Shown piece by piece: positions 13,108-57,870 of a DNA stretch of 64,000 bases. A model generated the notes under the pieces. The model had not been told where the DNA came from and did no database searches. It saw nothing but the letters and a program-made list of their open reading frames with translations. The position numbers were made by a program, and so were the translations under genes. The stretch's first letter is position 1; every line of letters starts with the position of its first letter. This DNA is from a virus, in IMG/VR virus record IMGVR_UViG_3300032334_002567, positions 310,001 through 374,000 of that record; one strand, given 5' to 3'.

Positions 13108-13148
13108 GTCCCGTAAGGAGATCACAAAGAAGTTCTCTAGGAGAAAAA

Positions 13149-13169: not shown

Positions 13170-13182
13170 TGTTCTTACTAAA

Positions 13183-13365
13183 ATGATAGCAAAACTTATT
13201 TTAGCTTTTTTGCTGATTATAACCATTCTTGTTGGTTATAGTTCTATTCAAGCTGTTGCAGAACCTACAAAAGTAGAGAAAAAAGTAGAAGACAAATCGA
13301 AATGTTTTTGTAATGGATTAAGTTTGCCCCAAGAGCGTCAGTGTCCAACAATGAACGATTTGTGA
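13183..13365 (+). CDS. Small secreted or membrane-anchored protein (60 aa)
   Basis: N-terminal hydrophobic helix (KLILAFLLIITILVGYSS) with an A-x-A-like site near residue 26, then a Lys/Glu stretch and a short cysteine-containing tail (CFCNG). Probably exported or anchored. No strong ribosome-binding site; possible coupling to the leader peptide just upstream. Confidence 0.5.
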   Translation: MIAKLILAFLLIITILVGYSSIQAVAEPTKVEKKVEDKSKCFCNGLSLPQERQCPTMNDL

Positions 13366-13595
13366 GATTCTTCATGGCATGGAATATCCCAGAAATTAAA
13401 AAATGGGCAAAGAACCATAAAATAGAAGTTAAATTAGACAAAGAGTCTAAAAAATACAGATGGACAATAGATGATAAAGTAAGTGAACTTTTATCTATAG
13501 ATGATTTAGTCCCTCAGGTATTTAACTTTTTAACGGACAACAAGTACGTTCAGCATCAGGAAGAATATAGGAACAAAAAAGACACTAAATTATAA
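13341..13595 (+). CDS. Small protein of unknown function (84 aa)
   Basis: GTG at 13341 overlaps the previous gene by 25 bases; an internal ATG at 13374 (MAWNIPEIKKWA) is an alternative start. Lys-rich, beta-alpha pattern with a WTIDDKVSELLSIDDL segment. No family is recognised. Confidence 0.5.
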   Translation: MSNNERFVRFFMAWNIPEIKKWAKNHKIEVKLDKESKKYRWTIDDKVSELLSIDDLVPQVFNFLTDNKYVQHQEEYRNKKDTKL

Positions 13596-37470: not shown

Positions 37471-38010
37471 ATGCAAACCCCATTTTTAGACGCTTTTTTA
37501 CCCTCAAAAACAGTTAGGCCCATGTCAATGGTGGTCATGCGTGGGAGCTTAATAACCTTTAACTACACATTTCACAAACCTAACCACGACTCTTTCCCTT
37601 TAGTTTTAGTGACCGATACCGAGTATCCATCAGAGGATAAACCAGCTAGGCCTAATGCAGCACCACAAAGAAGAGGAACCTACTTAAGAGGAATAAATTT
37701 ACACTATTTAACATTTCCCGTTATTAAGAACTTGATATATCCAAATAACAAGCAATCTGTATGTGATAACCCTAATTTTACGTATCAATATATCAAAAAC
37801 AATGGATATATAACATCAGCCTTTCGACAATACAAAAGAAACGGCATAGCGAACATTAAAAAACTCGACTGCCAGTTTGTTGTTAATGCAATGGGAATAT
37901 CTAGGTCATTTGATCCAAATGAACTAGAAGCCATACGCAGGTCTGTGAGGGAGCAAATAAACCGCATGGTCAATCCAAGAGCAGCATCAACCGATGAAAT
38001 GCCAATTTAA
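37471..38010 (+). CDS. Tail-associated protein of unknown function (179 aa)
   Basis: Only 13 bases before the tape measure gene and on the same strand. Beta-rich with a TFNYTFHKPNHDSFPLVLVTD stretch near residue 30, and a helical Arg-rich end (LEAIRRSVREQINRM). Position suggests a tail chaperone or tail-completion role, but no family is recognised. Confidence 0.55.
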   Translation: MQTPFLDAFLPSKTVRPMSMVVMRGSLITFNYTFHKPNHDSFPLVLVTDTEYPSEDKPARPNAAPQRRGTYLRGINLHYLTFPVIKNLIYPNNKQSVCDNPNFTYQYIKNNGYITSAFRQYKRNGIANIKKLDCQFVVNAMGISRSFDPNELEAIRRSVREQINRMVNPRAASTDEMPI

Positions 38011-38023: not shown

Positions 38024-41000
38024 ATGCCAGAATTATACGACAACCTAGGAAGAAAAATAGATGCTGCCAAAATGAGCATTGGCGAGCTAAAGGGTTTAGT
38101 CGGCACATTGATGAAGTCTAAAGTTGGACCAGCAAAACCTATTGGTGGTCAAGAAGAAGAAGCTAAAACACAAGACTCAAATCTAGAACTTATTAAATTA
38201 TTTGAAGACTATGTAAAAGGATTTAACGAAGAAGTAGATGAACAAAAGAGTTTACTTCAAAATATAGTAGATGCATTAAAAAATATTAATTCTAAAAAAG
38301 AAGAAAAAGCTAATCAACCAAAAGACAACAAAGAAGAAAAAGATGAGATAAAAGAAACATTTCCAGAAAAATTAAGAAAAGCTCTTACTGGAAAAAACAA
38401 GCCTAGCAAAGAAGAGCATACAACTGCTAAGGCTACAAATTCTTTAGCAAATCTATTCGGGAAAAAAGGTTCTGGCTATACCCATGATATACACTGTGAG
38501 GCATGGCTAAGACAAATATATCAGGTTTTAGCTAAAGATAGAGAAGGCGTAGCAACGCCAGAAGCCGCTGCTAGGCAGGTTGAAGAAGATGTAACAAGAG
38601 TCACAGCAAGAGAACCTGCAGAAACAGCTGCAAGGGAAGCTTCTGAGGCAGCTACTACTGGAGGGGGCGAGACTATAAGAGCGAGAGATTGGCTAGATGC
38701 CGAAGAGTACTACCAAGAGTTAAACGGATTAGAAAATGATTACTATCAACACACAGTAGATTCAATATTTGGACTATGGAACAAAGAAAAAGATTTATAC
38801 GAAAGAATAACAGGCTTAGAAAAAGAAAAAAATGCAATTCACCGTGCTTATTTGAAGGAAGGCATCAGCAAAGAGGAAAAAGAAAGACTAGCTTTAGCTT
38901 ACAGGCAAATGGGCATAGAAATAAGCAATCAAAAAATCATAAAAAGAAATTTAAAAGAACAAGAGAACGCTTGGAAAGAGATTGGAAAACAAATAGAGAC
39001 AGCAGAAAAATATTTATTAGGTTTCAAAGGAGGCGGGGCGTTTGAGGTACTAACAAAAGGAATAATAAAAGAAGAAAGAGAATTTACACAAAATATTAGA
39101 CAAGCGGCATATGAAACTGCTGGAGTCACTTCTGAGTCTAAGGCCCTGCAAAAAACATACGAAGAGATAGGCAAAACTTCTAAACTAACCGGAATGAATA
39201 GGAGTGAAACTCAAAAAGCTTATACAAAAGCATTAAGGTCAGGTGTCAAAGATCAAAAGAAAGCACTTAGTCTATCAGTATCACAACTAAACACAGAAAA
39301 ACAAATAGGTGCCACAGCAGATTCTTTAGGTGAATTCTTCATAGAAATGGGCACCCAACTTCAGTTCAACAATGATCAAATGTCAGAGGTTGGAAGAGGC
39401 ATAAGAGAAGCTGGTCGAAACACTGGTTTGGTAGGAGATAAATTAGCTGGCGTTGTCAGGGGCAGTGCAGAATTTGTAAAAATGATGAAAAATGCTGGTA
39501 CTGCGTCTGCATCTGCCGTGAGTAATATTGTTGGTTTACAAGCAGAGTTTACAAAGACAGGCGTAGAAGGAGGAAAGCTTCTTAAAGGACTAAGCAGTAC
39601 ATCTGGATTCTTAGGTAGTGATGCACAAACATTGGCTTTGATTGCTAATGCTGCTAACAGAGTTGGTCTTACTCAAGAAATGATTAATGGAACAATACTA
39701 AAAAGTTCAGCTAGCATTAAAAAGTTTAACAGAGGCTTGACTCAAACTGTCAATGACATGGGATTGGGTGGTAGAAACGCCGAAGAAATGCGAGCAAACT
39801 TTGACAAATTGTCAGATGAAGGCAGAAGAGATATCAATTTAAGACTCAACGCAGCTTTTGGGATGGAAGCCGGTGAGTTAATGTTAGCAATAGAAGGAAT
39901 CGAAAATCAATCTAAATCACTTTCTGATCGTTTGGGAGAACTTAATAAAAAGAAATCTCAAAACTTAACATTAGAAGAAAAAGCTACATTGCTTGAAGAA
40001 GAAAGAAGCTTGAAACTTGGTGCAGCAACAAAAGCTCTGACTGCAATATCTGAGGCCGCTAAGGGCACAAAAGACATGAACGAGGCCTTAGCAAAATTTA
40101 GCAGTAGAAGATCCGAATTTGAAGGCGACATGAAGGCACTCGGACAATCCTGGACAACCGAGACAGATGTTGCTAGGGGAGCTATAAAAAGTGCTTTAGA
40201 AAATGTAAATGCTGGCTTGAAAAAAGCAGGAAAGAAAGAACTAAAAATAGACTCGTCGGAAATAGAAAAAGCAATAAAAGACCCAGCAGCATTCAGAGAA
40301 CTAACGTCTCAAATAACTAAGGGAGAGCAAGAATTAGCTACTGCACAAAAAGCACAATTAGACCCATTGAGTGCAATAGAACAAAAGTTAACTGAAATAA
40401 ACGACTCTGTGAGAAACTTGAGCCAAAGTTTGATATCGGGTATTTTTAATAGTTTTCTAGGAAAAATGCTTGTGGGGATAACAGCTTTAGGAGCTTTAAT
40501 TGTAGGTGCCATAGGTGGATTGAATTCAATAATCATGCCTATTTGGAACTTAATGACTCTTTTAGGAAGATCTTTATCCGGTATGGGACAAAGAACATCA
40601 CAGGATAGAATGGGAAGTCTTGGGAAGGTATGGGATCGCTTAACTGGGCGTGATACAACCCCAACCCCAGAAAGATTAACAGAAGCAGAAGTAACAGCTA
40701 CCGGTAAAGATAAAACTATAACTAAAACTGGTTGCTGCGAGGATCTTGTAAGTATAAACAAAGCAATGTTGGATGTTTTAAATGCCATTAAAGATTGTGT
40801 TTGTGGCAAACAACCAGAAGCTTCTACTCAAGCAAGTCAAACAAAACAGGAGTTAAGAGAAGCGGAACTAACACCCAAATCAGTAGTATCACCAGATCAA
40901 GTTGCAGCTGGTAAAGCAGGAGAAGTTGCCAAAAAAGAAGTAGGAACAGACTTAGCTTCTAAATCAGTAGTTTCACAGCCACCACAAACTACTCCAGAAA

Positions 41001-44000
41001 AAATAGAAGAAGCTGTTAAAAAAGAAAGTAGGAAACCAAAGTTATCTCCTGAGGAGATTGCCACAAGAAAAGCAGCTGGACAGGCAGCTAAAGAGAGATC
41101 ACAAACAGCCGGTATAAGTCCTTCAGTAGCAAAGTCCATAAAGAGACAAGAAGTCAAAAATATAAAAATGGATGCTTCATTAAACAAAATGCAAAGAAGG
41201 AATATAATTCAAGAATTGCAGAACGGAAAAAAAACAAAGACAATGATCCTAAGAGAGCAGGAAGCTGCTAAAGGACCAAAGCCCTTAGAAGTACCCCAGC
41301 CACCAGATACAGGAAATTTTGATTTAAATAAATTAATTGCAAGTGGTCAAGATATGGCAAAGAGTGCTGCTGCTGTTGCCCTACTTGGTTTAGGAGTTGT
41401 TGCTCTAGGTGCAGCAATAGTGTTCTTGTCCAAGAAAATATTGAGTGGGTTCAACTTAGACACTTCAACAATACTACAAACAGCTGGTGCTATAGCTGCA
41501 CTTGCGGTAGCAGGTGGTGCGATTGCTGCTGCTGGTATTGTGGCATATGAGGCACTAAATAAGAAAGAAAATAAAGAATTTGTAGATACTGCTCCAAAAA
41601 GTAAAACCGAAATGCTAAAGCAAATAGCAGCAATGATGCTATTGGGGCCAGCTCTTGTACTATTAGGTGCAGCTATAGTCAAGATGTCCCAAATGGTTAT
41701 AGACGCTTTTGGACTTGATTTAAATACGGTTGCAATGGTTGCCGGAACAGTAGCTGCAATTGTAGCTGCTGCTGGAGCCTTGACTCTAGGTGCTTCAGAG
41801 GCTCTTGAAGGTTTTGAGAAACTAGAGGGCAATAAGCTTATAAAAAATCCTGGTAAACTTGTTAGTGCGATGGCTAAGGGAGCATTAGCTCTATTGATCG
41901 TTGGTCCGGGACTAGTTGCACTTTCTGCCGCAATAATCAAGATGTGTCAAGGTATATTAAGCTATGCAGAAATAGATCTAAACACAATCAAAACTGTAAC
42001 TGGACAAGTAGCCGCACTTCTCGCTGGCACTGGTGCAATAGCATTAGGTATAACAGCGGCTGCTGGAGGATTAATACTATTAGGTAAATTCGCAGACTTT
42101 GCCAAGAGCTATGCTAAAGACATGATAATAGGAGCGGCAGCACTAATACTTATTGGTCCTGCAGTTGTAGCCCTTGCAGCAGGTCTAAATTATATAATTA
42201 ATCAAATTTTATCTGCAACAGGTGTGGACGCAGCAAAAGCAGCAAAAACAGCGTGGAATGTAGCTGGTTTGATTGCGGCCACAGCTGTAATTGCTCTTGC
42301 GGTTATGGGTGCGATGGCGGGCTTAACAGCTTTAGGTGCACTTGCTACTGCCATGACAGGACCACAAATTGGATTCATGCTTTATGGTGCTGCTGCATTA
42401 TTATTGTTAGCTCCATTAGTTACCGGACTAGCTGCGGCTGTTTTATATTTAACCAAGTCTTTCATGGGTGGGTTTGACGCAAAACAAGCAACCAAAGTGG
42501 CATACGATCTATCTGCAGTTTTAATGTCTGCCTCTGTTATAGCCATAGCTGTAATGGCGGCCATGGCTGGACTGGGTGGTTTAGGAGTTCTTGCAGCTGG
42601 TTTACCTGCTTACATACCTGCTATGTTGGGTGGTGCAGCAGCTCTAATGCTGCTTACCCCGGTAATGACAGCTTTGGCAACTTCAGTAATAGGAATGACA
42701 GAATCCATAATGGATGGAATTGATGCTAAACACGCAGCTAAAGTTGCATATGATTTGGGGTCAATAATAATGTCTGCTGGCTCAATTGCTCTTGGGATCA
42801 TGGGAGCCATGGCAGCTCTAACAGGATTAGGATTATTGGCAGGTGCTTATATTGGATTTATAGGACCAATGATTGGCGGTGCTCTGGCATTGAGTGTAAT
42901 GACACCGGCTGTTGTAACCCTTGCTGGCTCCATTATATCGATGTCTGAATCTTTAATGAAAAATATGGTTAGCCCAGATGCTGCAAAGAAAACAGTTGAA
43001 AGCTTAAATTCTATTCTTGATAGTGCTGGCAATATAGCTGTGTCAATTATAGCCAACGCAGCTTCTCTGGCTCTTTTGGGAACAATGTTTGGTGTTTCTT
43101 TAGTAGCTATACCATTTATGAAGCTAGGCACTATGGCTTTGTCTAATCTAACACCTAGTATAGCAAATTTTGTAAACACTATTGTTAATATGGCAAAACA
43201 ATTTTCTACTTTAGTGTCTCCAAAAGAAGCTGTAAGCCTCTCTAAAGACGTCGCCGCTATAATGGGAGCGGTTGGAGATATAAGTGAACAAATATTCAAA
43301 ATTAAAGATAAAATGCTTTCTGTGCCTGTTTATGGAAGCGTTTGGAATGCAATAAGAGGTGTAAAAGTAGCCGATTATATGAATAGTGGGGTCAAAGCTC
43401 TGAAAGAATTAGCTGCTCCTGTTCAAGATTATGTTGCTGCCATAAAAGATTTTGCACTTAATGTTGGAAGAACAGTTAATCCAAGAAATGCTGCTGAAAT
43501 GGCGAGAGGCGTTGCCGCAATACTTTGTGCTGTTAGCAATGTAACTTCTAATATGATGACTGCTAAAGACGGTATACTTTCTATTCCTAAAAATGGAGGA
43601 ATTTTTGCGACTTTAACACGCACAAGAATTTCAGATTACCTTAATGCTGGCGTTGGTTCTTTGCAAGAAATGGCCGCACCAATTAAACGATATGTAGCAG
43701 CAGTGAAAAAATTTGCAAGTGAAATTGGATTTGATCCTAGACAAGCTGCTGAGATGGCTAGCGGTGTGGCAGCGATACTTTGTGCTGTTGGTAAGGTTAC
43801 TTCTAACATAATGACTGCTAAAGATGGAATAATGAGCATACCAGACAACGGTGGAATATTTGCTTGGATGCTAGGTGCTCAGTTATCCCAAAGAATGAAC
43901 AAAGGCGTCGAAGCACTTAAAGTACTTGGAAAACCAATACAAAGATTCGTTAAAGCAATAAAAGATTTTTCAAGCAAACTTGGAAACAAGCTGCCTCCTA

Positions 44001-47000
44001 GTCAAGCAGCCGGTATGGCAAAAGGAATAGCAGACATACTTTCTGGAGCCTCTGAAGTTACCAAACAAATAATGGAAACCAAAGATAAAATAATTGGAAT
44101 AAAGTCTGCACGAGGATGGGGATTCTTTAGAAAAGATTATGTCGTATTAATGGAAACAGGCAGAAAAGCCTTAGTTGAACTTTCCAAGCCAATTATAAAT
44201 TATATAGAATCTATTAGGGATTTTGCTTCACAAGTGGGTGCTAGATTAGATCCTAGACTAGCAGCGTCTATGGCCAGAGGAGTAGCTGATGTATTGACAG
44301 CTTCTGGCGACGTTACAGAAGGAATAATGAAGACCAAAGATAAATTGGTTACCATTAAATCAAGCGAAGGATTCTGGTTATGGAGCACTAGCATAGCAGA
44401 CTCCATGAAAGCAGGAGTTGTAGCTTTAAATACATTAAAACAGCCATTAATGTCGTACTTAGATACTATTGTTACTTTCTCAAATGAGCTCAAAGACAAG
44501 ATCAACCCGACTGATGCTAAGAAGGCGGTAAAGTCAATAACAAGTGTTTCAGAAGTAATAGACATGATCAGCAAAGTCATGAATGATCTAGGTTCAAAAA
44601 TTGCACCAATGACACAAGGAGGATGGTTTACCAGTTCTCCTGTAGAACAGATTAAAGAAGCAAAAACAAAAATGGATGCGTTTTTCCCTGTGCTTTCTAG
44701 CTTCATTACATCGATTGTTTCGCATGTAGATTCTTCTTTGGGTGAGTCCAAGAGTCTAAAGGGAACTGTTAAGTCCATGGGTCAAATATCAGAGCTTTTA
44801 AACAATATTAAGCCTGTAGTGGACACCATGATGTCTTCAATTGTTCCAATGACTCAAGGTGGGTTCTTTAAAGGTTCAGCAGTTGATAGCATCAAGGGTG
44901 CAATACCACAGTTAAATCAGTTTTTTGAATCAATATCAAGCTTTATATTAAACGGGTTAGTTAATCCAATTAAGAAGTCTGCGGAGAGCATTGATGACTT
45001 AAAGGAAACAGGCAAAAGAATTGTAGTTATTGCAGATGTTCTTAAAGGAACAAAAACTTCTATTGACTCTTTGTCGTCTATGATGACTTTGATGCAAGAT
45101 GGAATATTTACAAATTCACCAATAAAAACAATATCCAATAATATAACTGGTTTTTCTGATTATTTTAATGCTATATCAAATTTTGTAAGTAGTGGATTAA
45201 TCGAACCAATAACAAAAATGGGAGAAGTAAGTGGACTTAGCAAAGCAAAAGGAATTCTAATAACTGTCGGCAATTTCCTATGTGCCACCAAATTAACTAT
45301 AGAAAGCTTAGCTGGGGTTATTGGTTTGTTGGATTCAAAGTCAGTTTTTTCCTCTTCTCCAATTGACAATATAATTAATAATAAAGATAAATTTAGAAAA
45401 CACTTTTTAGCGATAGCCGACCTTGTAAAGAATGGAATTGCAGAGCCTGTTGCTCTAATGGGCGGAGATGGAACTTCTTTAGGTAAAGCAGCAAAAGTTA
45501 TAACAGCTATGGCCTCAATAGCTTGTAGGATTGTACCATTAATAAAGAATTTAGCTACTGCTGTTTCAATGGCTACAGATAAGACAGAGTTTTTTAGTGT
45601 AGCACCCATGCAAAAAATAATTGATGCTAAAGGTCAATTTGCAGTATGGTTCCAGCAAATAGCAGCTTTTGTTAGAGACGGCATTGTTCTGCCTGTCAAT
45701 AATGAGATGGAGGGGGTCAATATAGGTTCAGCTGCTAAGAATATATCCTCCATGACCAGCATAGCTGGTTCTGTTATGCCCCTTATAAAGAATCTAGCCA
45801 ATGTTATGGGCATGATGAGTGAAGATGCAGCAAAATCTTTAGACACAGAATTTCCTATAGACAAAATTATATCCTATAAAGATAGCTTCGCCATATTTTT
45901 CAGACAAACAGCAGGATTCATTAGAGATGGAGTTATTGCTCCAATTGTAGAAGAAATAAAAGATACACAGGAAATAACAAAAGCAAGTAGGATATTAAAT
46001 CAATTAAGCTCTAATATTGTTACCATACCAAAAGTTATAAAAGGAGTTTCTGAGGGTTTAATTCCGCTGGTAGAAGTGAGGTCAGGTCTAGCTCCTATGG
46101 AAGTTATAGCTGACTCTGCAAAAGATTTTGAAAAATGGTTTACAAAAGTAGCAGTCTTTATTAGAGATGGAGTAGTAACTCCAATCGTGAGAGAGTTTGA
46201 GGGAACACAAGATATTATTTTAGCCACAAGAATACTAAACAATATATCTTCAATGATCTCAGCTTTACCTAAGGTTATAACAAGTCTATCCAGTGTTTTT
46301 GTTGGACTAAACGCAAAAAGTTGCCTATCAGAATCTCCAATAGGTATGCTTGCAACTAATGCTGAGACTTTCAAAGCTTGGTTCAGAAGCGTCACTAGTT
46401 TAATACAAGAAGGTATAATTAAGCCATCTCTTGAAATAATGCCAGATAATTCTTTGCTTAAAGAAGTAAAGGTAAAATTAGCACTCAACGAGATAGCAAT
46501 CAGAGCGGTAACCCCTTGGTTGAATTCTTTGAGTTCTAGCATCCAAGGATTATCTGGTGGTATTTTCTGGAGAATATTTACTGGAATTAAGGTTTCTAAG
46601 TTTAGTAAAAACTTCATGTATATGGCCAGCCTAATAAATGATGGCCTCATAAAACCAATAAAGAAGAATCTTGCTTCTTCTGCGGAATTAGAAGAAGTTA
46701 CAAGTCAACTTGATGGTTTAGTTGATGTGGTAGACAGAGTTACATTTATACTAGGAATATTAGGAACAGCCTTTAACAATATAAGCCCAGTTAAAATAGA
46801 TGTGGGCAAGATGTTCAGTGTAACTGGGAGCATACGTGCTTTTAAAGAAGCCATAAACGAAGAGGCTAAAGATAAATTAGCATTATCCAGACAAATGCAA
46901 GGAGAGCTACAAGAAGTATTCATGGCTCCAGAAAAAATGATGAGGCAAGTTAGTGAAAAAGCTGTTGGGGGGACTTTTGAAGCCAAAGCTGTAGAGCCAA

Positions 47001-50000
47001 TTATATTCGGAGACGCAGAAGACATACAAGATTCTATAGGTGATGCCAAATTAACAGCTCTCGCAAAACTTAGTGAGAAGCTCGGAAGATCACAATTATC
47101 TGGTGTTGAATATGAGGTAAAAGTAAGTAAAGATTTTGTAGAAGCAACAGCTAAATGGTCAAAAGAGAATGAAGATGCAGCTCTAGGTTTAAAGAAATCT
47201 ATGGATGCACTTAAGGCAGGAGAAGGTGGAGCAGGAAGATCAAATTTACCAATAGTGCCAGCACCGGCTGCAAGAATTGAACCTGCACAAGCGGCTACTA
47301 AGGCAGTTGAAATGGAGAAAGATGAAAAATTCCAGAGAGACATGAAGATTTTTGGAAAAGGCAAAGCCACAGAGAAGTACTATCGTAGAAAATCGCTTGA
47401 AGAGGCTGTTACAAAGAATAACCCCACAGTTCAGCAAGACAGAAAACAAGAAACGGCACAATCAGCAGCTAATGCTGGAGTCAAAGCATATGGCGAGAAA
47501 AGCAAGCCGCTGACTGTTGAGTATAAAGTAGATATACTATTCATGCATGATAGTGCTAACATAAGAGAATCTTTAGAAGAGGCTGCTACAGAAGCTAAAG
47601 CCATGATAGCAGAAAGACTAGGAGTAAAAGAAGTACTAGGATCACAAGTTAAAATAGAATACTCTATAGACAAGAAAACAGAACAAGCAATAGCAACGGC
47701 CACATATACACCCGACAATAAGTTCTCTGAATTTCTTACAGAACAAAACAGAAGAGTAGCTGGTGTTCCTGCTTCGACAAATATAATACCTACCAATTCT
47801 GGGAGGACTAAAAATTCTGGTATTGGGGACGCCGTTATAGAAAAGGGTATGCTAGAAGCTTCTGCGAGAGAAGCAATTATAGGAAAGACAGAAATAGCCA
47901 TAGAAGTTGCAGAAAGAAAGGCAGAAGACAAAGCTAGAAAAGCCTTAGGTGCAATGATGGCCAAATCAGGAATTAAAGATTTTATTGGCATTGAAGTAGA
48001 TTCAGAAATAGAAGGTAATATTGTCAAGGCTACAGCACGTTGGTCTGAAGAAGCTCAAAAAGAGGCAAAGGGACTAAGAGAAAGCTTTGAAACTTTAGGT
48101 GCAAGCAAGGGAGGGTTAGGAAGAGCAGGTATGCTGCAGGCACAGGAACCAGCTCAAGCAGCAACACAAGCATCAACACAAGCAGCAACACAAGCAACAA
48201 AGACATCGACGGCTGCATTCGATCAATTCGATATTATAGAACAGCGACAAATAGAAGCAGAAAATCGTCTTCTAGACGCTGCTGCAAAGCAAGGGGTGAG
48301 TGGACCTTTACTTAGTGGTATAACTTCGGGTAAAAGTATAGCTGTAAGCACTGGTATTACCGGAGTTCAGGATGCAACAAAGGCAATAAAAGCTCAACAA
48401 GCTCAACAAGCTACAAAAAAAGAACCAGCTCAAGCAGCAACTATAGCTACAAAAAATAGTCCCGTTGTTCAACAGGCACAAAAAATGGAGCCAGCACAAG
48501 CCGCAGTAGACGCTGGCGTTAGATCAGCTAGCGAGAAAAGCAAGCCACTGACTGTTGAGTATAAAGTAGATATACTATTCATGCATGATAGTGCTAATAT
48601 AAGAGAGTCTTTAGAAGAAGCCGCCACAGAGGCTAAAGCTATGATCGCAGAAAGACTAGGAGTAAAAGAAGTACTAGGATCACAAGTTAAAATAGAATAC
48701 TCTATAGACAAGGAAACAGAACAGGCAATAGCAAAAGCCACGTATACACCCGACAATAAGTTCTCTGAATTTCTTACAGAACGAAACAGAAGAGCAGCTG
48801 GTGTTCCTACTTCGCCAAATACAGTGCCAGCCAAGTCTGGGGCGGCTAAGACATACACTTTTGGAGACGCAGGTATCGAGAAAGGTATGCTAGAGGCTTC
48901 TGCTAGAGAAGCAATTATAGGAAAAACAGAAATAGCCATAGAAGTTGCAGAAAGAAAGGCAGAGATAAAAGCCAGAGAAGCCTTGGGTGTAATGATGGCT
49001 AAATCAGGAATTAAAGATTTCATTGGAATAGAAGTAGATTCAGAAATAGAAGGTAACATTGTCAAGGCTACAGCACGTTGGTCTGAAGAAGCTCAAAAAG
49101 AGGCAAAGGGACTAAGAGAAAGCTTTGAAACTTTAGGGGCTAGCAAGGGAGGTCTAGGTAGAGGTGGTATGCAGATACAAATGCAAGAACCAGCACAAAC
49201 AGCAACAGCTGCTACGCAGTCAAATCCTGTTGTTCAGCAAGCTACAAAACCAGAACCAGCACAAGCAGCAACTAAGGCAGTTGAAATGGAAAAGGATGAA
49301 AAATTCCAGAGAGACATGAGAGTTTTTGGAAGAGGAAAAGCAACAGATAAATACTATCGTAGAAAATCGCTTGAAGAGGCTGTTGCAAAGAGCAATCCTA
49401 CAGTCCAGCAAGCTACAAGAACAGAACCAGCACAAGCAGCAACCGCTTCTACAAATTCAAATCCTGTTGTTCAGCAAGCTACAAGAACAGAACCAGCACA
49501 AGCAGCAACTCAAATAGCACAGCCTATGGCTCAACCGCAAAGTTTACCAGCACAAGAAAGATTTTTAATTACCAAAGATGTAAAAACTAATAAAGATTCT
49601 ATTGAAGTGGTTCTAAGAAAAGAACTAAAACTTTTAGATGATGAAGAATTAGAAGAAGAAATATTAACAACTAAAGTATTTGAAATATTAAAGAAAAAAG
49701 GTATAAGTCCATCAGGAGTAAACCTTGATACCAGTTTAAAACAAGGAATTTTAGAAGTTAAAGCCACAACAAGCCCAGAAGATCTTAGTTTTTCTGAAGG
49801 CCTTAGCAAGGAATTTTCAAGGATTAATGCTGGCGGTGGTGGCGTGGGAAGATCAGCAATCCAACCAACAATAGCACAAGAACAAATGCAAGCTGCAAAT
49901 CAGGTTGTTGCAGAGGCTACAGCAAGAATGACAAATAAGTCAGAGTCCTCATTTAATGCTGCTGAAAAGATGGCTATTTTAGATCTTAAGGGAACTTTAT

Positions 50001-51238
50001 TAGAAAGAAACATACCACAATCTAGTGTTGATATAGAAACTGCAATAGAAGGTAAATTTGTAAAAGCAGTGGCAAAGTTAAAACAAAATGAAATAGAACC
50101 GGCACAAGCAGCCACACAAGTAGCACAAGTTCAATCTGGCAATAAACGGGGAAGTTTCTTAGAGGCCTCAGGACAGGCTCTGACTATAGGTAGGACAGAA
50201 GAAGACTGGGATTTAGCCGAAGATAAGGCTACTGATGCTGCGATGGGTGCACTTAAACAAATGATGATCAAGTCTGGATTTGGGGAAAGAGAAATTAGTG
50301 GCATAGAGGTTGAATCACAAGTAGATGAAAAAACAGGAATAGTAAAAGCAGTAGCAAGGTGGTCTGATGAAGTTCAAAAAAGTGCACAAGCCCAAGGAGC
50401 ATCTTACGAGGCACTAGGAGCAGGTAAGGGAGGGCTAGGCAGAGGTGGCATCCAAGTACAGGAACCAGCACAGGCAGCAACTACTGCTACCCTTGCCGAT
50501 ATATCTGGTTATTTTTCTTCTACAGGCACAAAACCAGAACCAGCACAGGCTGTAACTCAAATTGCTACAGAAGCTAGAATAAAAGGCAGGACAGAGGCCG
50601 CAATCGGTGCTGCTGAGAAGGTGGCTATTTTAGATCTCAAGGGTATTCTCTTAGAAAGAAACATGCCACAATCTAGTGTTGATATAGACACTAAAGTAGA
50701 AGCAACGCTTGTAAGAGCAATAGCAAAATTCAAACAAAATGATGTAGAACCAGCACAGGCAGCAACTCAAAAAGCAGCTAATGCAGCAGTCCCAAGTGCA
50801 AATGGTAACATAGAAAGTGTAGTGCCTAACACAGATGTAGACACTTCTAAAGCTCTGCCATCGACAGCAACACCAGTGCCTGTCAGCACAATATCTCCAA
50901 GTGCATCTATTGCTAGTATAGAGCAAAAAATGCTACAAGACAAAGCGGCAGCTTCACCAGCAAAAGCAGAAATAACATCTCCAGAACTAGGAAATATAGT
51001 TTCAGAAAATGAAGAACAAACAATTATATTGTCAGAAATGAGAGATTTGTTTGAGAAGTTCTTGGCTGCGATTAAGCCAAGATCAGATATAAATTCTTCT
51101 GGCGGCGGTGAGCCAGGAAATACATCTTCTATTCCAATAGCTGGTAAGCCTGCTAACTATTATAGAAGAGTCACAGGTAATGTATCACAGACTCCAGGCA
51201 AGGGAGTTGTCAATTTAGGAGCAAAGGCACTAAGTTAA
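38024..51238 (+). CDS. Giant tape measure protein (4404 aa)
   Basis: One uninterrupted frame of 13.2 kb. Residues 1-200 are charged and disordered with coiled coils; residues about 806-850 and about 1106-1720 hold many hydrophobic Ala/Gly/Leu segments as expected for the membrane-crossing part of tape measures. From about 1727 to 2860 there are repeats of roughly 85 then 82 residues (for example NPRNAAEMARGVAAIL, DPRQAAEMASGVAAIL). The last 1300 residues consist of small alpha-beta domains joined by EPAQAAT linkers. By the usual ~0.15 nm per residue, a tail of roughly 650 nm would be implied if the whole protein acts as ruler. Confidence 0.9.
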   Translation: MPELYDNLGRKIDAAKMSIGELKGLVGTLMKSKVGPAKPIGGQEEEAKTQDSNLELIKLFEDYVKGFNEEVDEQKSLLQNIVDALKNINSKKEEKANQPKDNKEEKDEIKETFPEKLRKALTGKNKPSKEEHTTAKATNSLANLFGKKGSGYTHDIHCEAWLRQIYQVLAKDREGVATPEAAARQVEEDVTRVTAREPAETAAREASEAATTGGGETIRARDWLDAEEYYQELNGLENDYYQHTVDSIFGLWNKEKDLYERITGLEKEKNAIHRAYLKEGISKEEKERLALAYRQMGIEISNQKIIKRNLKEQENAWKEIGKQIETAEKYLLGFKGGGAFEVLTKGIIKEEREFTQNIRQAAYETAGVTSESKALQKTYEEIGKTSKLTGMNRSETQKAYTKALRSGVKDQKKALSLSVSQLNTEKQIGATADSLGEFFIEMGTQLQFNNDQMSEVGRGIREAGRNTGLVGDKLAGVVRGSAEFVKMMKNAGTASASAVSNIVGLQAEFTKTGVEGGKLLKGLSSTSGFLGSDAQTLALIANAANRVGLTQEMINGTILKSSASIKKFNRGLTQTVNDMGLGGRNAEEMRANFDKLSDEGRRDINLRLNAAFGMEAGELMLAIEGIENQSKSLSDRLGELNKKKSQNLTLEEKATLLEEERSLKLGAATKALTAISEAAKGTKDMNEALAKFSSRRSEFEGDMKALGQSWTTETDVARGAIKSALENVNAGLKKAGKKELKIDSSEIEKAIKDPAAFRELTSQITKGEQELATAQKAQLDPLSAIEQKLTEINDSVRNLSQSLISGIFNSFLGKMLVGITALGALIVGAIGGLNSIIMPIWNLMTLLGRSLSGMGQRTSQDRMGSLGKVWDRLTGRDTTPTPERLTEAEVTATGKDKTITKTGCCEDLVSINKAMLDVLNAIKDCVCGKQPEASTQASQTKQELREAELTPKSVVSPDQVAAGKAGEVAKKEVGTDLASKSVVSQPPQTTPEKIEEAVKKESRKPKLSPEEIATRKAAGQAAKERSQTAGISPSVAKSIKRQEVKNIKMDASLNKMQRRNIIQELQNGKKTKTMILREQEAAKGPKPLEVPQPPDTGNFDLNKLIASGQDMAKSAAAVALLGLGVVALGAAIVFLSKKILSGFNLDTSTILQTAGAIAALAVAGGAIAAAGIVAYEALNKKENKEFVDTAPKSKTEMLKQIAAMMLLGPALVLLGAAIVKMSQMVIDAFGLDLNTVAMVAGTVAAIVAAAGALTLGASEALEGFEKLEGNKLIKNPGKLVSAMAKGALALLIVGPGLVALSAAIIKMCQGILSYAEIDLNTIKTVTGQVAALLAGTGAIALGITAAAGGLILLGKFADFAKSYAKDMIIGAAALILIGPAVVALAAGLNYIINQILSATGVDAAKAAKTAWNVAGLIAATAVIALAVMGAMAGLTALGALATAMTGPQIGFMLYGAAALLLLAPLVTGLAAAVLYLTKSFMGGFDAKQATKVAYDLSAVLMSASVIAIAVMAAMAGLGGLGVLAAGLPAYIPAMLGGAAALMLLTPVMTALATSVIGMTESIMDGIDAKHAAKVAYDLGSIIMSAGSIALGIMGAMAALTGLGLLAGAYIGFIGPMIGGALALSVMTPAVVTLAGSIISMSESLMKNMVSPDAAKKTVESLNSILDSAGNIAVSIIANAASLALLGTMFGVSLVAIPFMKLGTMALSNLTPSIANFVNTIVNMAKQFSTLVSPKEAVSLSKDVAAIMGAVGDISEQIFKIKDKMLSVPVYGSVWNAIRGVKVADYMNSGVKALKELAAPVQDYVAAIKDFALNVGRTVNPRNAAEMARGVAAILCAVSNVTSNMMTAKDGILSIPKNGGIFATLTRTRISDYLNAGVGSLQEMAAPIKRYVAAVKKFASEIGFDPRQAAEMASGVAAILCAVGKVTSNIMTAKDGIMSIPDNGGIFAWMLGAQLSQRMNKGVEALKVLGKPIQRFVKAIKDFSSKLGNKLPPSQAAGMAKGIADILSGASEVTKQIMETKDKIIGIKSARGWGFFRKDYVVLMETGRKALVELSKPIINYIESIRDFASQVGARLDPRLAASMARGVADVLTASGDVTEGIMKTKDKLVTIKSSEGFWLWSTSIADSMKAGVVALNTLKQPLMSYLDTIVTFSNELKDKINPTDAKKAVKSITSVSEVIDMISKVMNDLGSKIAPMTQGGWFTSSPVEQIKEAKTKMDAFFPVLSSFITSIVSHVDSSLGESKSLKGTVKSMGQISELLNNIKPVVDTMMSSIVPMTQGGFFKGSAVDSIKGAIPQLNQFFESISSFILNGLVNPIKKSAESIDDLKETGKRIVVIADVLKGTKTSIDSLSSMMTLMQDGIFTNSPIKTISNNITGFSDYFNAISNFVSSGLIEPITKMGEVSGLSKAKGILITVGNFLCATKLTIESLAGVIGLLDSKSVFSSSPIDNIINNKDKFRKHFLAIADLVKNGIAEPVALMGGDGTSLGKAAKVITAMASIACRIVPLIKNLATAVSMATDKTEFFSVAPMQKIIDAKGQFAVWFQQIAAFVRDGIVLPVNNEMEGVNIGSAAKNISSMTSIAGSVMPLIKNLANVMGMMSEDAAKSLDTEFPIDKIISYKDSFAIFFRQTAGFIRDGVIAPIVEEIKDTQEITKASRILNQLSSNIVTIPKVIKGVSEGLIPLVEVRSGLAPMEVIADSAKDFEKWFTKVAVFIRDGVVTPIVREFEGTQDIILATRILNNISSMISALPKVITSLSSVFVGLNAKSCLSESPIGMLATNAETFKAWFRSVTSLIQEGIIKPSLEIMPDNSLLKEVKVKLALNEIAIRAVTPWLNSLSSSIQGLSGGIFWRIFTGIKVSKFSKNFMYMASLINDGLIKPIKKNLASSAELEEVTSQLDGLVDVVDRVTFILGILGTAFNNISPVKIDVGKMFSVTGSIRAFKEAINEEAKDKLALSRQMQGELQEVFMAPEKMMRQVSEKAVGGTFEAKAVEPIIFGDAEDIQDSIGDAKLTALAKLSEKLGRSQLSGVEYEVKVSKDFVEATAKWSKENEDAALGLKKSMDALKAGEGGAGRSNLPIVPAPAARIEPAQAATKAVEMEKDEKFQRDMKIFGKGKATEKYYRRKSLEEAVTKNNPTVQQDRKQETAQSAANAGVKAYGEKSKPLTVEYKVDILFMHDSANIRESLEEAATEAKAMIAERLGVKEVLGSQVKIEYSIDKKTEQAIATATYTPDNKFSEFLTEQNRRVAGVPASTNIIPTNSGRTKNSGIGDAVIEKGMLEASAREAIIGKTEIAIEVAERKAEDKARKALGAMMAKSGIKDFIGIEVDSEIEGNIVKATARWSEEAQKEAKGLRESFETLGASKGGLGRAGMLQAQEPAQAATQASTQAATQATKTSTAAFDQFDIIEQRQIEAENRLLDAAAKQGVSGPLLSGITSGKSIAVSTGITGVQDATKAIKAQQAQQATKKEPAQAATIATKNSPVVQQAQKMEPAQAAVDAGVRSASEKSKPLTVEYKVDILFMHDSANIRESLEEAATEAKAMIAERLGVKEVLGSQVKIEYSIDKETEQAIAKATYTPDNKFSEFLTERNRRAAGVPTSPNTVPAKSGAAKTYTFGDAGIEKGMLEASAREAIIGKTEIAIEVAERKAEIKAREALGVMMAKSGIKDFIGIEVDSEIEGNIVKATARWSEEAQKEAKGLRESFETLGASKGGLGRGGMQIQMQEPAQTATAATQSNPVVQQATKPEPAQAATKAVEMEKDEKFQRDMRVFGRGKATDKYYRRKSLEEAVAKSNPTVQQATRTEPAQAATASTNSNPVVQQATRTEPAQAATQIAQPMAQPQSLPAQERFLITKDVKTNKDSIEVVLRKELKLLDDEELEEEILTTKVFEILKKKGISPSGVNLDTSLKQGILEVKATTSPEDLSFSEGLSKEFSRINAGGGGVGRSAIQPTIAQEQMQAANQVVAEATARMTNKSESSFNAAEKMAILDLKGTLLERNIPQSSVDIETAIEGKFVKAVAKLKQNEIEPAQAATQVAQVQSGNKRGSFLEASGQALTIGRTEEDWDLAEDKATDAAMGALKQMMIKSGFGEREISGIEVESQVDEKTGIVKAVARWSDEVQKSAQAQGASYEALGAGKGGLGRGGIQVQEPAQAATTATLADISGYFSSTGTKPEPAQAVTQIATEARIKGRTEAAIGAAEKVAILDLKGILLERNMPQSSVDIDTKVEATLVRAIAKFKQNDVEPAQAATQKAANAAVPSANGNIESVVPNTDVDTSKALPSTATPVPVSTISPSASIASIEQKMLQDKAAASPAKAEITSPELGNIVSENEEQTIILSEMRDLFEKFLAAIKPRSDINSSGGGEPGNTSSIPIAGKPANYYRRVTGNVSQTPGKGVVNLGAKALS
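47501..49169 (+). repeat. Duplicated segments in the tape measure gene, 1038-bp period
   Basis: Segments 47501-48131 and 48539-49169 are closely similar with a constant 1038-bp offset (346 codons), so no indels separate them. The SKPLTVEYKVDILFMHDSA block opens both. A diverged third copy of the SGIKDFIGIEVDSEIEG part lies near 50170-50450, and the KDEKFQRDMKIFGKG block at 47310 recurs at 49297. Confidence 0.9.
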
Positions 51239-51255: not shown

Positions 51256-51867
51256 ATGGCAAAAGCTACAATTAACGGAGGTCAATACTCTGGAACATTA
51301 AATAGGATACCGGACTGCTACATTGCAGTGGGAGGAAGCCCCGGTATTCTACCTGACGGTACTAGGGTAGAAGGTGGGCTAAAATACATAGATATGTATA
51401 TTTTACCGGATGTATCTGATTCTAAGTCCGCAAATTATGCCCCAGAAAATGGAATAGGAAGATCTAATCCTTTTACAATATTTTCTTATTCAGAACTTAG
51501 AACAATATCTTGGACTTGTCACTTCATAGTTCAGACTTTAAAAGGACCAAATTCAGCAGACAATATTCTAGACAATATAAGAACTCTACAATCTGCGGTT
51601 TATCCTAGAGACAGCTTTGGATCTCCTCCTCCTTTGTGCAAGCTTAAATGTGGCGACTTATTAGCGTCAAATGACACTGAAATTTGTGCTGTGCTCAGGT
51701 CTTACTCGGTAAAGTACGACACATCAGTTCCTTGGTTTAGTTCTGATTCGGGCACCCTACCTAACAGACTAGTTCCTTATAAAATAGATGTAGACTTACA
51801 ATTTGATGTGGTCTACAACCAAACTTCACTACCAACTTCTAGTATAATTTTGACAACAGGTTATTAA
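51256..51867 (+). CDS. Tail tube cap/baseplate protein (gpU or gp48/54-like) (203 aa)
   Basis: Ribosome-binding site TAGGAGAAATA. Directly after the tape measure, where contractile tails place the tube-cap protein. The sequence has the pattern of these proteins: a beta-rich N terminus, a CHFIVQTLKG segment, PPPLCKLKCGDL near residue 120 and VKYDTSVPW followed by YKIDVDLQFDVV near 155-190. Assignment rests on order and pattern. Confidence 0.65.
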   Translation: MAKATINGGQYSGTLNRIPDCYIAVGGSPGILPDGTRVEGGLKYIDMYILPDVSDSKSANYAPENGIGRSNPFTIFSYSELRTISWTCHFIVQTLKGPNSADNILDNIRTLQSAVYPRDSFGSPPPLCKLKCGDLLASNDTEICAVLRSYSVKYDTSVPWFSSDSGTLPNRLVPYKIDVDLQFDVVYNQTSLPTSSIILTTGY

Positions 51868-51868: not shown

Positions 51869-52204
51869 ATGGCAAATTACATAGAAAAAACAAATATAGA
51901 TCCAAAAAGATTTGTTACACCAAGTAGTAGGTATGCTGGTTCTGCCATAGTGTACTACACAGAAAACAAATTATTAACGTTTGAAACTTATAAAAAAAGT
52001 AAAAAAACTATTGATAATACTAGTAAAAACAACAAATATTATGTTATCACTCCTGGCACTGAGTATAGACCTGACTTGGTTGCAGCTGAGGCTTATGGCA
52101 GCACTGATTTTTGGTGGAAAATCATGGAAGCCAATAACATAAAAGATGTTTTTAATTTCAAAGCTGGTTTAAACATCATTATACCAAATGTTATATTAAG
52201 GTAA
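51869..52204 (+). CDS. LysM-like baseplate protein (gp53/gpX-like) (111 aa)
   Basis: Follows one base after the tube-cap gene. The second half matches the LysM-containing gp53/gpX pattern: YYVITPGTEYRPDLVAAEAYGS then DFWWKIMEANNIKDV and LNIIIPN. In T4, gp53 is a wedge component; in P2-like phages gpX binds the hub. Order supports the call. Confidence 0.8.
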   Translation: MANYIEKTNIDPKRFVTPSSRYAGSAIVYYTENKLLTFETYKKSKKTIDNTSKNNKYYVITPGTEYRPDLVAAEAYGSTDFWWKIMEANNIKDVFNFKAGLNIIIPNVILR

Positions 52205-52206: not shown

Positions 52207-53718
52207 ATGGCCATAGAATTAGAATGTTTATCAACTTATGGTTGTGCAAATGAAGAAGGAGAAGTATCAGTAAAGGGAGCTCCCTATGAAGCAGTTTATA
52301 CCCCGTATTGTGCTTTATGGGTTGCTGGAAAAGAGATTGTACTTCAAACTGGGAATGAATCTGCTCCTGGTACAAACCATCATACATTAATAAAGTCTTT
52401 TGAGTATGGATGTCAATCTGGCACTGGCGGGTGCGGGGTTAAGTTTGAAATAATTGATGAAGGCGGTGTTTTATATCAGCAATTAGTTCAAGGTTTAAAT
52501 AAGGATATAAGTTTCACGCTAAGTGCTGTGACGGGAGTTAATAGTTGTGAAGTTGAATTTGGATGGATAGTTGTTGGTTGTAATGGTGAGTGGAGAAAAA
52601 TTACAAACAAGGAGCTCGGAAGTCCTCTGTTTTTTTTACCTAAAAATGTAGAAACTACATTTGAGGGCGGATTAATTAAGTTTACATTTGAAGCAACAGA
52701 TATATTTACTAGATCTTCAGACACTAGATTAGACAAAAATATAGGAACAGAAGATGATAAAGTTCATCTTAAAGAAGCCCTTCAAAGGCTATTTAGAAAC
52801 AAAGACCCACAGTTTGAACAAGTAATATTTGAAAATCAATATGGCGACTCAGGAGATGGTGATTTTGAATTTGAAGAAGATCCCGATGGACCGAGAGGGG
52901 TATGGACTACAGACCAAGAGAGTCAAATAGAATGTGCAAGAAAGTGGCTTAACAAGGTTAGAACTGTAGAAAAAAATGGATGTTTAGCAATGTATGATCC
53001 TAAAAGAAAAGCAGCTGTAATAAAGGAAAGGCCAGAAGACAAAGGAGACTGCTGTGACAACAACAATCTAGGAACTTATATAGTTAACGGAGGAAATAGT
53101 TCTCCTGTAATTAGTTTTAACCCGAACTTTAAATGGAATTTAGGATCCAATGCTTCAAGTGGTGGTACTTCTGGTGCCGGTTCTTCAGCAAGGCAGGATG
53201 TAAAAGCTGTAGAAGAAGAAGGAATTCAGAATACTGGTACTGAGACTTCTCCTACTAATGAACAATGTAAGTATCAATGGCAAGATCCAGGAGAACACAC
53301 TGAGAGAACAGAAAAAACTTTTCAGGCAAATATGGAAGCCGCAAAACCTTTTGAGGTTTTACCTGCTATTGAAGCAGAATTAAGAATAATAGGTGATCCC
53401 ACTCTTAACAACCCTGTTTTTCTAACAGGAAAATGGATTTCTATTGTAGTTATAGATCCTTATTATATTGCTGGGGGTGAGTCGGACAACACCTCTTGTG
53501 AATGGATAAGCAAACCAAATTGCAACCCTATTTTAAGCAACAAAAAATGGATGATTTTAGGAGCAAACCATCAAATTCAATCTGGTTCTTATGTAACTAC
53601 ATTAAAAGTATCTTTAAACACTCCAAATATTAATATATCTGCGAGTGAAACTTTAGGCGGAGATGGATGTGGCACAGAGCAGGCTCAAGAAGCAACTGGC
53701 GGGGAACCTTTGGAGTAA
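52207..53718 (+). CDS. Baseplate hub protein (gp27/gpD-like) (503 aa)
   Basis: Two bases after the previous stop. The protein is beta-rich, with two halves of the tube-like fold expected for hub subunits (for example SCEVEFGWIVVGCNGE near 115 and NKKWMILGANHQIQ near 450). Rich in Gly, Cys and Asn; positioned exactly between the LysM-like and spike genes, which fits gp27/gpD. No lysozyme domain. Confidence 0.7.
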   Translation: MAIELECLSTYGCANEEGEVSVKGAPYEAVYTPYCALWVAGKEIVLQTGNESAPGTNHHTLIKSFEYGCQSGTGGCGVKFEIIDEGGVLYQQLVQGLNKDISFTLSAVTGVNSCEVEFGWIVVGCNGEWRKITNKELGSPLFFLPKNVETTFEGGLIKFTFEATDIFTRSSDTRLDKNIGTEDDKVHLKEALQRLFRNKDPQFEQVIFENQYGDSGDGDFEFEEDPDGPRGVWTTDQESQIECARKWLNKVRTVEKNGCLAMYDPKRKAAVIKERPEDKGDCCDNNNLGTYIVNGGNSSPVISFNPNFKWNLGSNASSGGTSGAGSSARQDVKAVEEEGIQNTGTETSPTNEQCKYQWQDPGEHTERTEKTFQANMEAAKPFEVLPAIEAELRIIGDPTLNNPVFLTGKWISIVVIDPYYIAGGESDNTSCEWISKPNCNPILSNKKWMILGANHQIQSGSYVTTLKVSLNTPNINISASETLGGDGCGTEQAQEATGGEPLE

Positions 53719-53730: not shown

Positions 53731-55863
53731 ATGGGATTTGTACATGAAAATGAATTAGAAATACTAAAAAGAAGAATTGCAACTATAGAAAATAGGTTCG
53801 GAAATATAAGCTACGAACTAAAAGGCGTAGTGAAGTCAGAACTCACAGCAGGAATGACAGTAATACAAGCCTCGCAAATGCAATATGGGCTTTATACCGC
53901 TATGTGCATAGACACAATAGATATATGGAAACAAAATAGAATAAGATGGTTTTCACCTTTGTTTCATAATCCCAAACAAGATTACAAAGAATTTCCTTGG
54001 GCTTTACCTGTCTCTTCTATGGGTGGATTTGATGATTGTGGATTAACTTGGGTGCCACCGGCAGGATCAACGGTTTGTGTACTATTTGAAAATGGAAATA
54101 GGGAATGCCCATTTTATATAGGCACAACGTGGCACAGAGACAGAGGACCAGATGGTAATCACAAATTCGGAGTAGGAATACCAGAGTATCAAAGAGTTTC
54201 AGAAGGACATAGAAGAGGGTACATGGTTGGTCCAAACGATGGTTCACAGGTTTTTCCACCATGGAATACAGAAAATTATAACGGATACGATCTATCCTCT
54301 GTTGTTGATTTTGCAAGTAATCCAGAAGCTCAGAAGATCATAACTTATCCCAACATTTATGGCTTTAAAACTCCAGAAAAACATATGATCAAAATGGTTG
54401 ATGGAGATCCAAAATGCAATAGAAAGTGGAAAAGATTTGAAATCATGTCTAGTTGTGGAAACTGGATAATGTTGAAGGACGATCATCTTCACTATGCAGG
54501 CCAGTGGGCCAATCCTCAATGTGGTGGAGTTCGTCAAGGAGAAACAAGCTGTGTGGAAGGGGCATCTAATAGTGGTGCAGCAAACACAACAAACACAGAA
54601 GGTGCCAATCCGGCAAATACAAAAGACATAACTCCAAAATTTGGAAAGAAAAAAGAAGAGACAAGTTGTGATGGAAATCAAAGCAACTCAAAAATAATAG
54701 GGGGACATCCAAATACAGGACACCCACAAACAAAATATATAGAAACACAAGTAGGACACAACCCATTCTTTAAACATAGTCAAGAATGCAGGCCATACAG
54801 AGGACCGGGAACTCCTCAAAATCCAGCTGTAGATTTACCTCAGTCTGGAATACAGATTATGTCCATATCTGGTCACACTTTTGTTATGGACGATTCTGTT
54901 GAAGAACCTTCTGGTAACCCAGAGTGGGAAAGGTCAATGCAAGAGTTTGATTTTGGTTGTAATAATCACTATGTAGGAAGAACATATTGGCAATCTGCAA
55001 CCGGTCACAGAATAGAGATGAGTGACGTTGAAAGCCCACAAGGAGATGAAGGAGCAAATTTAAGGGGCGAAGACAATTATATTAAAATGACCACTGCTAA
55101 CGGCAATAAAATTGAAATGAATGATCACACCATTCAACAAAAAGATTGTCCTGGTTGTCCACCTAACATTGCAGGAGAAAGAAGAGGAATTCACCTTCAA
55201 TCAACTAGCAATCACACAATTGATATGGTGGATTATACAAACGAGCAGTGCGGGCCGTGCAGAAGAGAGGGCGGAGTACCAATCAGTGAAGCTAAAAGAG
55301 CCTATGTAAGAATAAGAACCGGTTATGGTTTAGAAATGACTTACAATGATGATTTTAGTCAAAAAGAGACACAACAACAGTATATTCAAATTTTCTGTCC
55401 ACAAAAAGATAACAAAGAAAGAGGCCCACATATACATCGTTACCAAGAAGCACCAAGTGGGCCTGGACTAATATTTCTCAGAGCAGGAGGAAACTATGTT
55501 GTTTCTACATATGATAATCAAATATCTATCATAGGAGACCCAGACCTAAATCCTTCAGATAAAATTGAGATTATTAGTAGAATTAAATTAGTTTATTGTA
55601 AAGACGTTTACGTTAACGTCACTGATAAGCTGCATCTGTTCTTAGCAAAAGATAAAATACTATTATTGGCCGGTGAAGATAATGATGCTCCGCCAGGAGG
55701 TTGTTGTGGTGCAGAGCAACCAAACGTTGGGCCTGTTTTAGTTTATGACCCATGTTCTGGATGTATAAGATTGAGCGATAGAATATTCGGCAGTACGAGT
55801 TCGAATGCTCCTGCTGCTTCTATTTTTATGCTGACCCCGTTTGCAAAGTGTCCAGGCTGTTAA
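53731..55863 (+). CDS. Tail spike/cell-puncturing protein (gp5/gpV-like) (710 aa)
   Basis: GAGGATTT precedes the ATG. The N-terminal part (MTVIQASQMQYGLYTAMCID... PPAGSTVCVLFENGN) fits the OB-fold of gp5/VgrG/gpV spikes. Later parts are rich in His, Asn and beta strands (SGHTFVMDDSVEE, TGHRIEMSDVES, SNHTIDMVDYTN), the signature of repeated beta-helix units of the needle. No lysozyme domain is seen, so it resembles P2 gpV more than T4 gp5. Confidence 0.75.
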   Translation: MGFVHENELEILKRRIATIENRFGNISYELKGVVKSELTAGMTVIQASQMQYGLYTAMCIDTIDIWKQNRIRWFSPLFHNPKQDYKEFPWALPVSSMGGFDDCGLTWVPPAGSTVCVLFENGNRECPFYIGTTWHRDRGPDGNHKFGVGIPEYQRVSEGHRRGYMVGPNDGSQVFPPWNTENYNGYDLSSVVDFASNPEAQKIITYPNIYGFKTPEKHMIKMVDGDPKCNRKWKRFEIMSSCGNWIMLKDDHLHYAGQWANPQCGGVRQGETSCVEGASNSGAANTTNTEGANPANTKDITPKFGKKKEETSCDGNQSNSKIIGGHPNTGHPQTKYIETQVGHNPFFKHSQECRPYRGPGTPQNPAVDLPQSGIQIMSISGHTFVMDDSVEEPSGNPEWERSMQEFDFGCNNHYVGRTYWQSATGHRIEMSDVESPQGDEGANLRGEDNYIKMTTANGNKIEMNDHTIQQKDCPGCPPNIAGERRGIHLQSTSNHTIDMVDYTNEQCGPCRREGGVPISEAKRAYVRIRTGYGLEMTYNDDFSQKETQQQYIQIFCPQKDNKERGPHIHRYQEAPSGPGLIFLRAGGNYVVSTYDNQISIIGDPDLNPSDKIEIISRIKLVYCKDVYVNVTDKLHLFLAKDKILLLAGEDNDAPPGGCCGAEQPNVGPVLVYDPCSGCIRLSDRIFGSTSSNAPAASIFMLTPFAKCPGC

Positions 55864-55876
55864 TTTTGGAGTTATA

Positions 55877-56305
55877 ATGAAAAAATTTTTAGGAGCACCA
55901 TACCCTATAGAAAAAAATCCGAATGGTTTTCTATATTCACAAAGTGGAATAAATCAAATAAAAGCAGATATGCTTATATTACTTTTGACTAATCCTGGCG
56001 AGCGTGTAATGAATCCTGCGTATGGGACTCCTTTAAAAAAGTTAATATTTGAGCCAAATGACGAAATTTTAAAACAAAAAGCCAGAAATATAATTTTTAA
56101 CTCAATTAGTAGATGGGAACCTAGAGTAGTAATAAATCAGGTTGAGGTTTTAACTAATATTGAAAATTCTTCTCTAAATAGCAATGACGACCTAACAGAA
56201 AAAAGTCACATTCTATTTGTTAGAATTATTTTTATAGATCCTCAAAACATACAACAAGTACAAGAACTGACCTTAGAAGTCCCATTAGCTGGAACAGGAG
56301 CTTGA
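55877..56305 (+). CDS. Baseplate wedge gp25-like protein (gpW) (142 aa)
   Basis: ATG at 55877 has TTTGGAG upstream; an earlier start lies inside the spike gene. The central motif LTNPGERVMNPAYGTPLKKLIF is the gp25/gpW signature. Homologues form the inner baseplate wedge in phages, R-type pyocins and type VI secretion (TssE). Confidence 0.9.
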   Translation: MKKFLGAPYPIEKNPNGFLYSQSGINQIKADMLILLLTNPGERVMNPAYGTPLKKLIFEPNDEILKQKARNIIFNSISRWEPRVVINQVEVLTNIENSSLNSNDDLTEKSHILFVRIIFIDPQNIQQVQELTLEVPLAGTGA

Positions 56306-57863: not shown

Positions 57864-57870
57864 GGAAAAC

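Follow-up and report, generated by a model that had tools for sequence, protein, structure and literature searches.

The locus and its genes

The window, meaning the whole 64-kb stretch of DNA analysed here, corresponds to positions 310001-374000 of IMGVR_UViG_3300032334_002567, a virus contig of 381,443 bp that appears to be incomplete; genes for the head, the tube and the sheath are seemingly absent from it. The longest open reading frame (ORF) of the window starts with ATG at 38024 and extends to 51238 on the + strand, encoding 4404 aa with no internal stop; the initial annotation had reported a frame of this length, and both its existence and its exact coordinates hold. An identical 4404-aa ORF is present in a second IMG/VR record, 3300037189_025222, and since around 39 kb are shared at 100% identity, the two records probably represent the same virus, a separate lineage being unlikely. 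The ORF and its neighbours are as follows:

37471..38010 (+): conserved upstream gene, 179 aa; weak match to phrog_429
38024..51238 (+): gene of the very probable tape measure protein, 4404 aa; ORF, position 5' of the baseplate genes
51256..51867 (+): conserved 203-aa tail protein directly 3' of the tape measure; weak, sub-threshold CIS_tube match
51869..52204 (+): gp53-like baseplate wedge protein; phrog_7145, E=1.7e-14, Pfam gp53 just under the cut-off
52207..53718 (+): probable baseplate hub protein, 503 aa; by a syntenic relative, with no library match
53731..55863 (+): spike-type protein with a Phage_base_V OB domain; E=3e-8
55841..56305 (+): gp25-like baseplate wedge protein; phrog_261, E=2e-20
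56307..57863 (+): gp6/gpJ-like baseplate wedge protein; phrog_219, E=6e-29
57838..61056 (+): gpI/gp7-like baseplate protein (Tail_P2_I); E=1.6e-7

The 4404-aa gene lies immediately 5' of the genes for gp53-, hub-, spike-, gp25-, gp6- and gpI-like proteins, which is the position of a tape measure, and no second long ORF is found near it. The same order, from tape measure to baseplate genes, is kept in the metagenomic phage LR756511.1 and in the other relatives examined. A GEAGPEA-type motif is common to many tape measures; it was not found in the 4404-aa protein, and GEAGPEAV occurs in its close homologues L178 and L179. By virtue of its position, its size, the conserved family of homologues and the motif in close members of it, the protein very probably sets the length of the tail, in agreement with the tape-measure identity first proposed for it. 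Searches of PHROG and Pfam gave no match at all for the 4404-aa protein, tape-measure profiles included, and no enzyme domain was detected in it; tape measures diverge quickly, so that curated profiles do not define the family (PMC2147016).

Gp29, the tape measure of T4, is also encoded beside gp53-, gp25-, gp6- and hub-type baseplate proteins, but it is short and shares no detected similarity with the window protein (no PHROG match). In Thermus phages P74-26/P23-45, the tape measure reaches around 5000 aa and the tail more than 800 nm; the total length is thus comparable to that of the window protein, but these phages are siphoviruses with a non-contractile tail, unlike the window phage with its contractile-type baseplate genes. 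The giant contractile phage G likewise has a very long tape measure 5' of its baseplate genes, gp183 of 2893 aa (PMC8570332). Gp183 carries LytD-like and M23 peptidase domains, of which none is detected in the window protein, whereas the latter is 1.5 times as long and its middle is an array of repeats. Among phages in the collection searched, pieces of the 4404-aa protein matched either LR756511.1 or nothing, and LR756511.1 is also the sole close match there, no virion of the clade being known from the collections searched. This 595-kb phage encodes a 1640-aa tape measure with a homologous core (27% over around 360 aa, E=9e-19) and baseplate genes syntenic with those of the window (gp6 46% and spike 38% identical); unlike the window protein, its tape measure has none of the A, B or C repeats described below.

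Domain and repeat anatomy of the 4404-aa protein

Conserved modules at the two ends and a conserved core frame a repetitive middle:

38024..38533 (+): conserved N-terminal module, residues 1-170; BLAST to relatives, HMM matches in most
38951..40573 (+): conserved core, residues 310-850; the sole part kept in all relatives including LR756511.1
41351..43003 (+): early A array, strongly hydrophobic, residues 1110-1660; GRAVY +1.09, hydropathy windows
41729..44488 (+): class A array, predicted helical, 11 units of around 82-89 aa, residues 1236-2155; HMM scan
44636..46741 (+): class B array, predicted helical, 9 units of around 80 aa, residues 2205-2906; HMM scan
46814..50890 (+): class C region, residues 2931-4289; HMMs and AlphaFold2 model
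47456..48166 (+): duplicated block of around 715 bp in class C, copy 1; 88% nucleotide identity to copy 2
48494..49207 (+): duplicated block of around 715 bp in class C, copy 2; 81% protein identity over 260 aa
50891..51238 (+): conserved C-terminal module, residues 4290-4404, plus stop; 40-53% identical in relatives

Piecewise self-comparison of the protein returned 135 off-diagonal matches spanning 3,121 residues, while all 15 locally shuffled controls returned none. With the final HMMs, 11 A units of around 85 aa (spacing mostly 82-89) and 9 B units of around 81 aa (spacing mostly 79-82) are counted, and both lines of evidence confirm the two helical repeat classes, of about 85 and 82 residues, that the initial annotation had described. 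Two further features had escaped it. The first is a third repeat class, C, present as seven full or partial units at residues 3011-4250 in a region that makes up around 31% of the protein. The second is a strongly hydrophobic stretch early in the A array (residues ~1110-1660), which contains many membrane-helix-like segments, spaced at half a unit in the early A units.

The three classes are also distinguished by their predicted folds. An AlphaFold2 model of residues 1820-2520, built on seven sequences, shows two helices in each A/B unit, of around 33 and 42 residues with a short loop in between; its confidence is very low (mean pLDDT 45.5), and helix content is therefore the only usable result, according to which the A and B arrays would be all-helical. 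Class C is predicted as mixed alpha/beta, in the form of small beta-alpha-beta-beta domains modelled with moderate confidence (mean pLDDT 55.8, and around 70-80 in the better domain), joined by low-confidence linkers that are rich in Ala, Gln and Pro and predicted to be disordered. When the class C model served as query in a structure search, nothing was matched significantly, and neither the A/B nor the C repeats matched isolated phages.

A family of probable rulers of variable length

Relatives were gathered by searches with gp6 and with the tape-measure core, followed by inspection of the upstream DNA, which yielded around 35-36 tape measures. Their length varies more than 4-fold, from 1058 to at least 4983 aa, the longest being open at its 5' end, and the window protein ranks fourth, behind those of at least 4983, 4741 and 4553 aa; the latter two, L178 (4741 aa) and L180 (4553 aa, in a 532-kb record), are complete. 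The core is present in all members, while an N-terminal module of around 150 aa and a C-terminal one of around 100 aa are found in most. The middle is variable, with 0-16 A units and 0-18 B units across the family. As for class C, its HMM has seven matches in the window protein and otherwise only weak ones, one or two, in L178 and L179, and the corresponding region is missing or much shorter in most relatives. In particular, L085 and L087 (3.1-3.3 kaa) have 20 and 18 A+B units as compared with 20 in the window protein, so that the excess length of the latter is mostly class C and not helical array. Other members, such as L182 (3948 aa) and L181 (4154 aa), reach a similar total length mostly with A/B repeats.

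The relatives vary in length by gain, loss or swap of repeated blocks. L088 has a tape measure of only 1912 aa, in which the N-terminal 870 residues are 48% identical to the window protein and the C-terminus is homologous, whereas the middle is wholly different. In the tree of the core, L088 falls inside the clade with the window, L178 and L179 (support 100/100 for the four), and its grouping with L178/L179 is supported at 98/83; therefore, either the ruler was shortened or replaced in L088 or giant tape measures arose repeatedly. One well-supported clade thus holds tape measures of 1912, 4404, 4741 and at least 4983 aa.

The module that is N-terminal in the window protein, or its YTHDxHxE motif, sits near the C-terminus in L183 (residues 3039-3173), in L099 (residues 831-941) and in the LR756511.1 tape measure (around residue 1486); such a shift between the two ends suggests domain permutation. 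A short hydrophobic repeat, SGLKAVFVDLP..., is common to the middle of L088 and the C-terminal parts of L178 and L179, whose middles otherwise differ, pointing to an exchange of ruler modules. When genome contigs were searched, a single contig from a metagenome-assembled genome was retrieved, L188 (RXKI01000071.1), which is binned with Neisseriaceae and carries the gp6 of the clade (73% identical); the binning is either a hint of the host or a mis-binning, and the tape-measure region of L188 is split into two open frames.

Growth by whole repeat units

Two near-identical members of the family capture a change in unit number. L165 (2690 aa) and L171 (2599 aa) were recovered from different metagenomes. 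Over 2599 residues their identity is 99.8%, and a single unit of 91 residues accounts for the whole difference in length; the extra unit of L165 is 98.5% identical at the nucleotide level to the adjoining one. This shows that L165 carries a recent tandem duplication of a whole unit, although the difference could in part result from repeat collapse in the assembly of L171. In parallel, several unit-sized indels (76-88 residues) separate L085 from L087. The proposal that these proteins grow by duplication of units, made at first from the 4404-aa sequence, is thus supported by comparison between relatives. A further pair, L095 and L096, has tape measures that are 90% identical with a difference of 161 residues in the middle of the protein.

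The family represents a natural series of probable rulers in which the core is conserved, the ends are mostly conserved and the middle is variable. The pair that differs by one 91-aa unit and the clade that spans 1912 to at least 4983 aa amount to a natural experiment, which opens the questions of what residues in a tape measure contribute to length and by what route tail length changes among phages.

A probable contractile tail and its sheath

Wedge proteins of the contractile-tail type are encoded in the window (gp25-, gp6/J- and gpI/gp53-like), and LR756511.1 has genes for a tail sheath stabilizer (phrog_227, E=5.6e-17), for two proteins resembling the tail tube and for a gp26-like hub protein. 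The baseplate genes together with the sheath stabilizer support, at the level of gene content, a contractile tail for the clade. As to the sheath itself, the Pfam families PF04984, PF17482 and PF22671 found nothing usable in the window contig or in the relatives searched, and the sheath of the clade may be very divergent. Three candidates were considered and set aside: a sub-threshold match in G010, located at the baseplate region and judged to be due to chance; a 929-aa ORF of the window contig, which had no matches; and a conserved protein of around 755 aa 3' of the baseplate genes, which is PKD-type and fibre-like.

Tail length

Gp29 of T4 has 590 aa. With a tail of 92.5 nm for T4 and, for phage G, a tail of 450 nm and a tape measure of 2893 aa (PMC8570332), both phages give a scale of around 0.156-0.157 nm per residue when the whole protein is counted. 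For the full 4404 residues, such a scale returns 660-690 nm, which is to be read as an upper limit, while leaving out class C (around 3045 residues remaining) reduces the value to 457-478 nm. If A/B units were instead folded hairpins of around 6 nm, the tail would measure around 310 nm by our own estimate. Among the published contractile tails that we found, the longest is that of Bace-11, around 480 nm (PMC4113786), and that of S-CREM2 measures 418 nm (PMC10665884). S-CREM2 gp124 (2668 aa) would fit the latter length and was considered as a calibrator, but it is beta-rich and resembles a baseplate wedge protein; no S-CREM2 tape measure was recognised in the genome parts examined, nor was phiKZ gp181 located within the phiKZ region examined.

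On balance, the 4404-aa protein is probably the tape measure of a contractile jumbo phage in which the A/B units would form the ruler and class C would lie outside it, and the tail is expected, from the sequence, to measure around 300-480 nm and at most 660-690 nm. The best estimate therefore falls in the known contractile range, though large. In this mechanism, conserved end modules and the core would flank a freely variable middle, where the helical ruler would consist of around 20 two-helix A/B units, and duplications or losses of entire units would alter that number. Several copies of the protein would run along the tail lumen, and the rings of the tube would go on polymerising up to the point where the ruler is fully covered; during injection, the hydrophobic early A units may line a channel across the host membrane. 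Class C would be a row of small alpha/beta domains acquired late, probably contributing mass or another function rather than ruler length. We infer the latter from the predicted fold, the composition and the distribution of class C, and the value of around 460-480 nm is obtained at the phage G scale by leaving out residues 2931-4289, which are predicted as alpha/beta and disordered and are missing or much shorter in most relatives.

The lower end of this range would apply if the A/B units were folded as hairpins, giving a tail of around 300 nm and leaving many residues for the formation of a membrane channel. The two helices and short loop predicted for each unit are consistent with this possibility, as are the strongly hydrophobic early A units with membrane-like segments at half-unit spacing. 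We nevertheless regard it as doubtful, as the confidence of the A/B model is very low, several folded copies would have to fit in a lumen of around 4 nm (PMC9022992), and the tape measures of T4 and phage G scale as extended helices.

It is improbable, instead, that the whole 4404-residue chain acts as the ruler, with a tail of around 660-690 nm that would be the longest contractile one known. Such a reading draws on the scale of T4 and phage G, which applies to the whole protein, the C-terminal enzymatic domains of phage G included (PMC8570332), and on L182 and L181, which are mostly A/B at a similar total length. It is at odds with the predicted non-helical fold and disordered linkers of class C, with the absence of class C from relatives of 3.1-3.3 kaa that have the same arrays, and with the published contractile tails found here, which reach only around 480 nm. 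Were class C to count as ruler, which is likewise improbable, the uncultivated jumbo phages of the clade would build tails of at least 650 nm that change in steps of one unit, up to around 750 nm for the longest tape measure of the family (at least 4983 aa).

The preferred reading of an A/B ruler also bears on the claim, made initially, of an exceptional tail of around 650 nm. This length stands as an upper bound, less likely than 300-480 nm, but not as a tail longer than any contractile one, as around 460-480 nm remain without class C. Nor is a length of 4404 aa by itself proof of a record tail: three family members are longer, and the estimate is comparable to the tails of phage G and Bace-11. 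L182, L181 and L180 are better candidates for exceptional tails, because helical repeats fill most of their protein. Finally, it is highly improbable that the 4404-aa protein is a giant virion component other than the tape measure, with a gene that simply neighbours those of the baseplate: the failure of tape-measure profiles to match and class C domains that are odd for a ruler would fit, but all relatives examined retain its place before gp53/hub/spike/gp25/gp6, the vicinity holds no second long ORF and GEAGPEAV is present in close homologues.

Other features of the window

The 5' part of the window differs in composition from the DNA next to it. In positions 1-13500, GC content is 0.39-0.57 as compared with 0.32-0.37 in the neighbouring DNA, and long ORFs are few, be it under the standard code or when TAG or TGA is recoded; in the first 14 kb, alternative readings of the stop codons gave no convincing long frames. 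A single tRNA-Leu lies at 564-648, and a similar GC-rich stretch is present in the relative G003, at around 247-300 kb.
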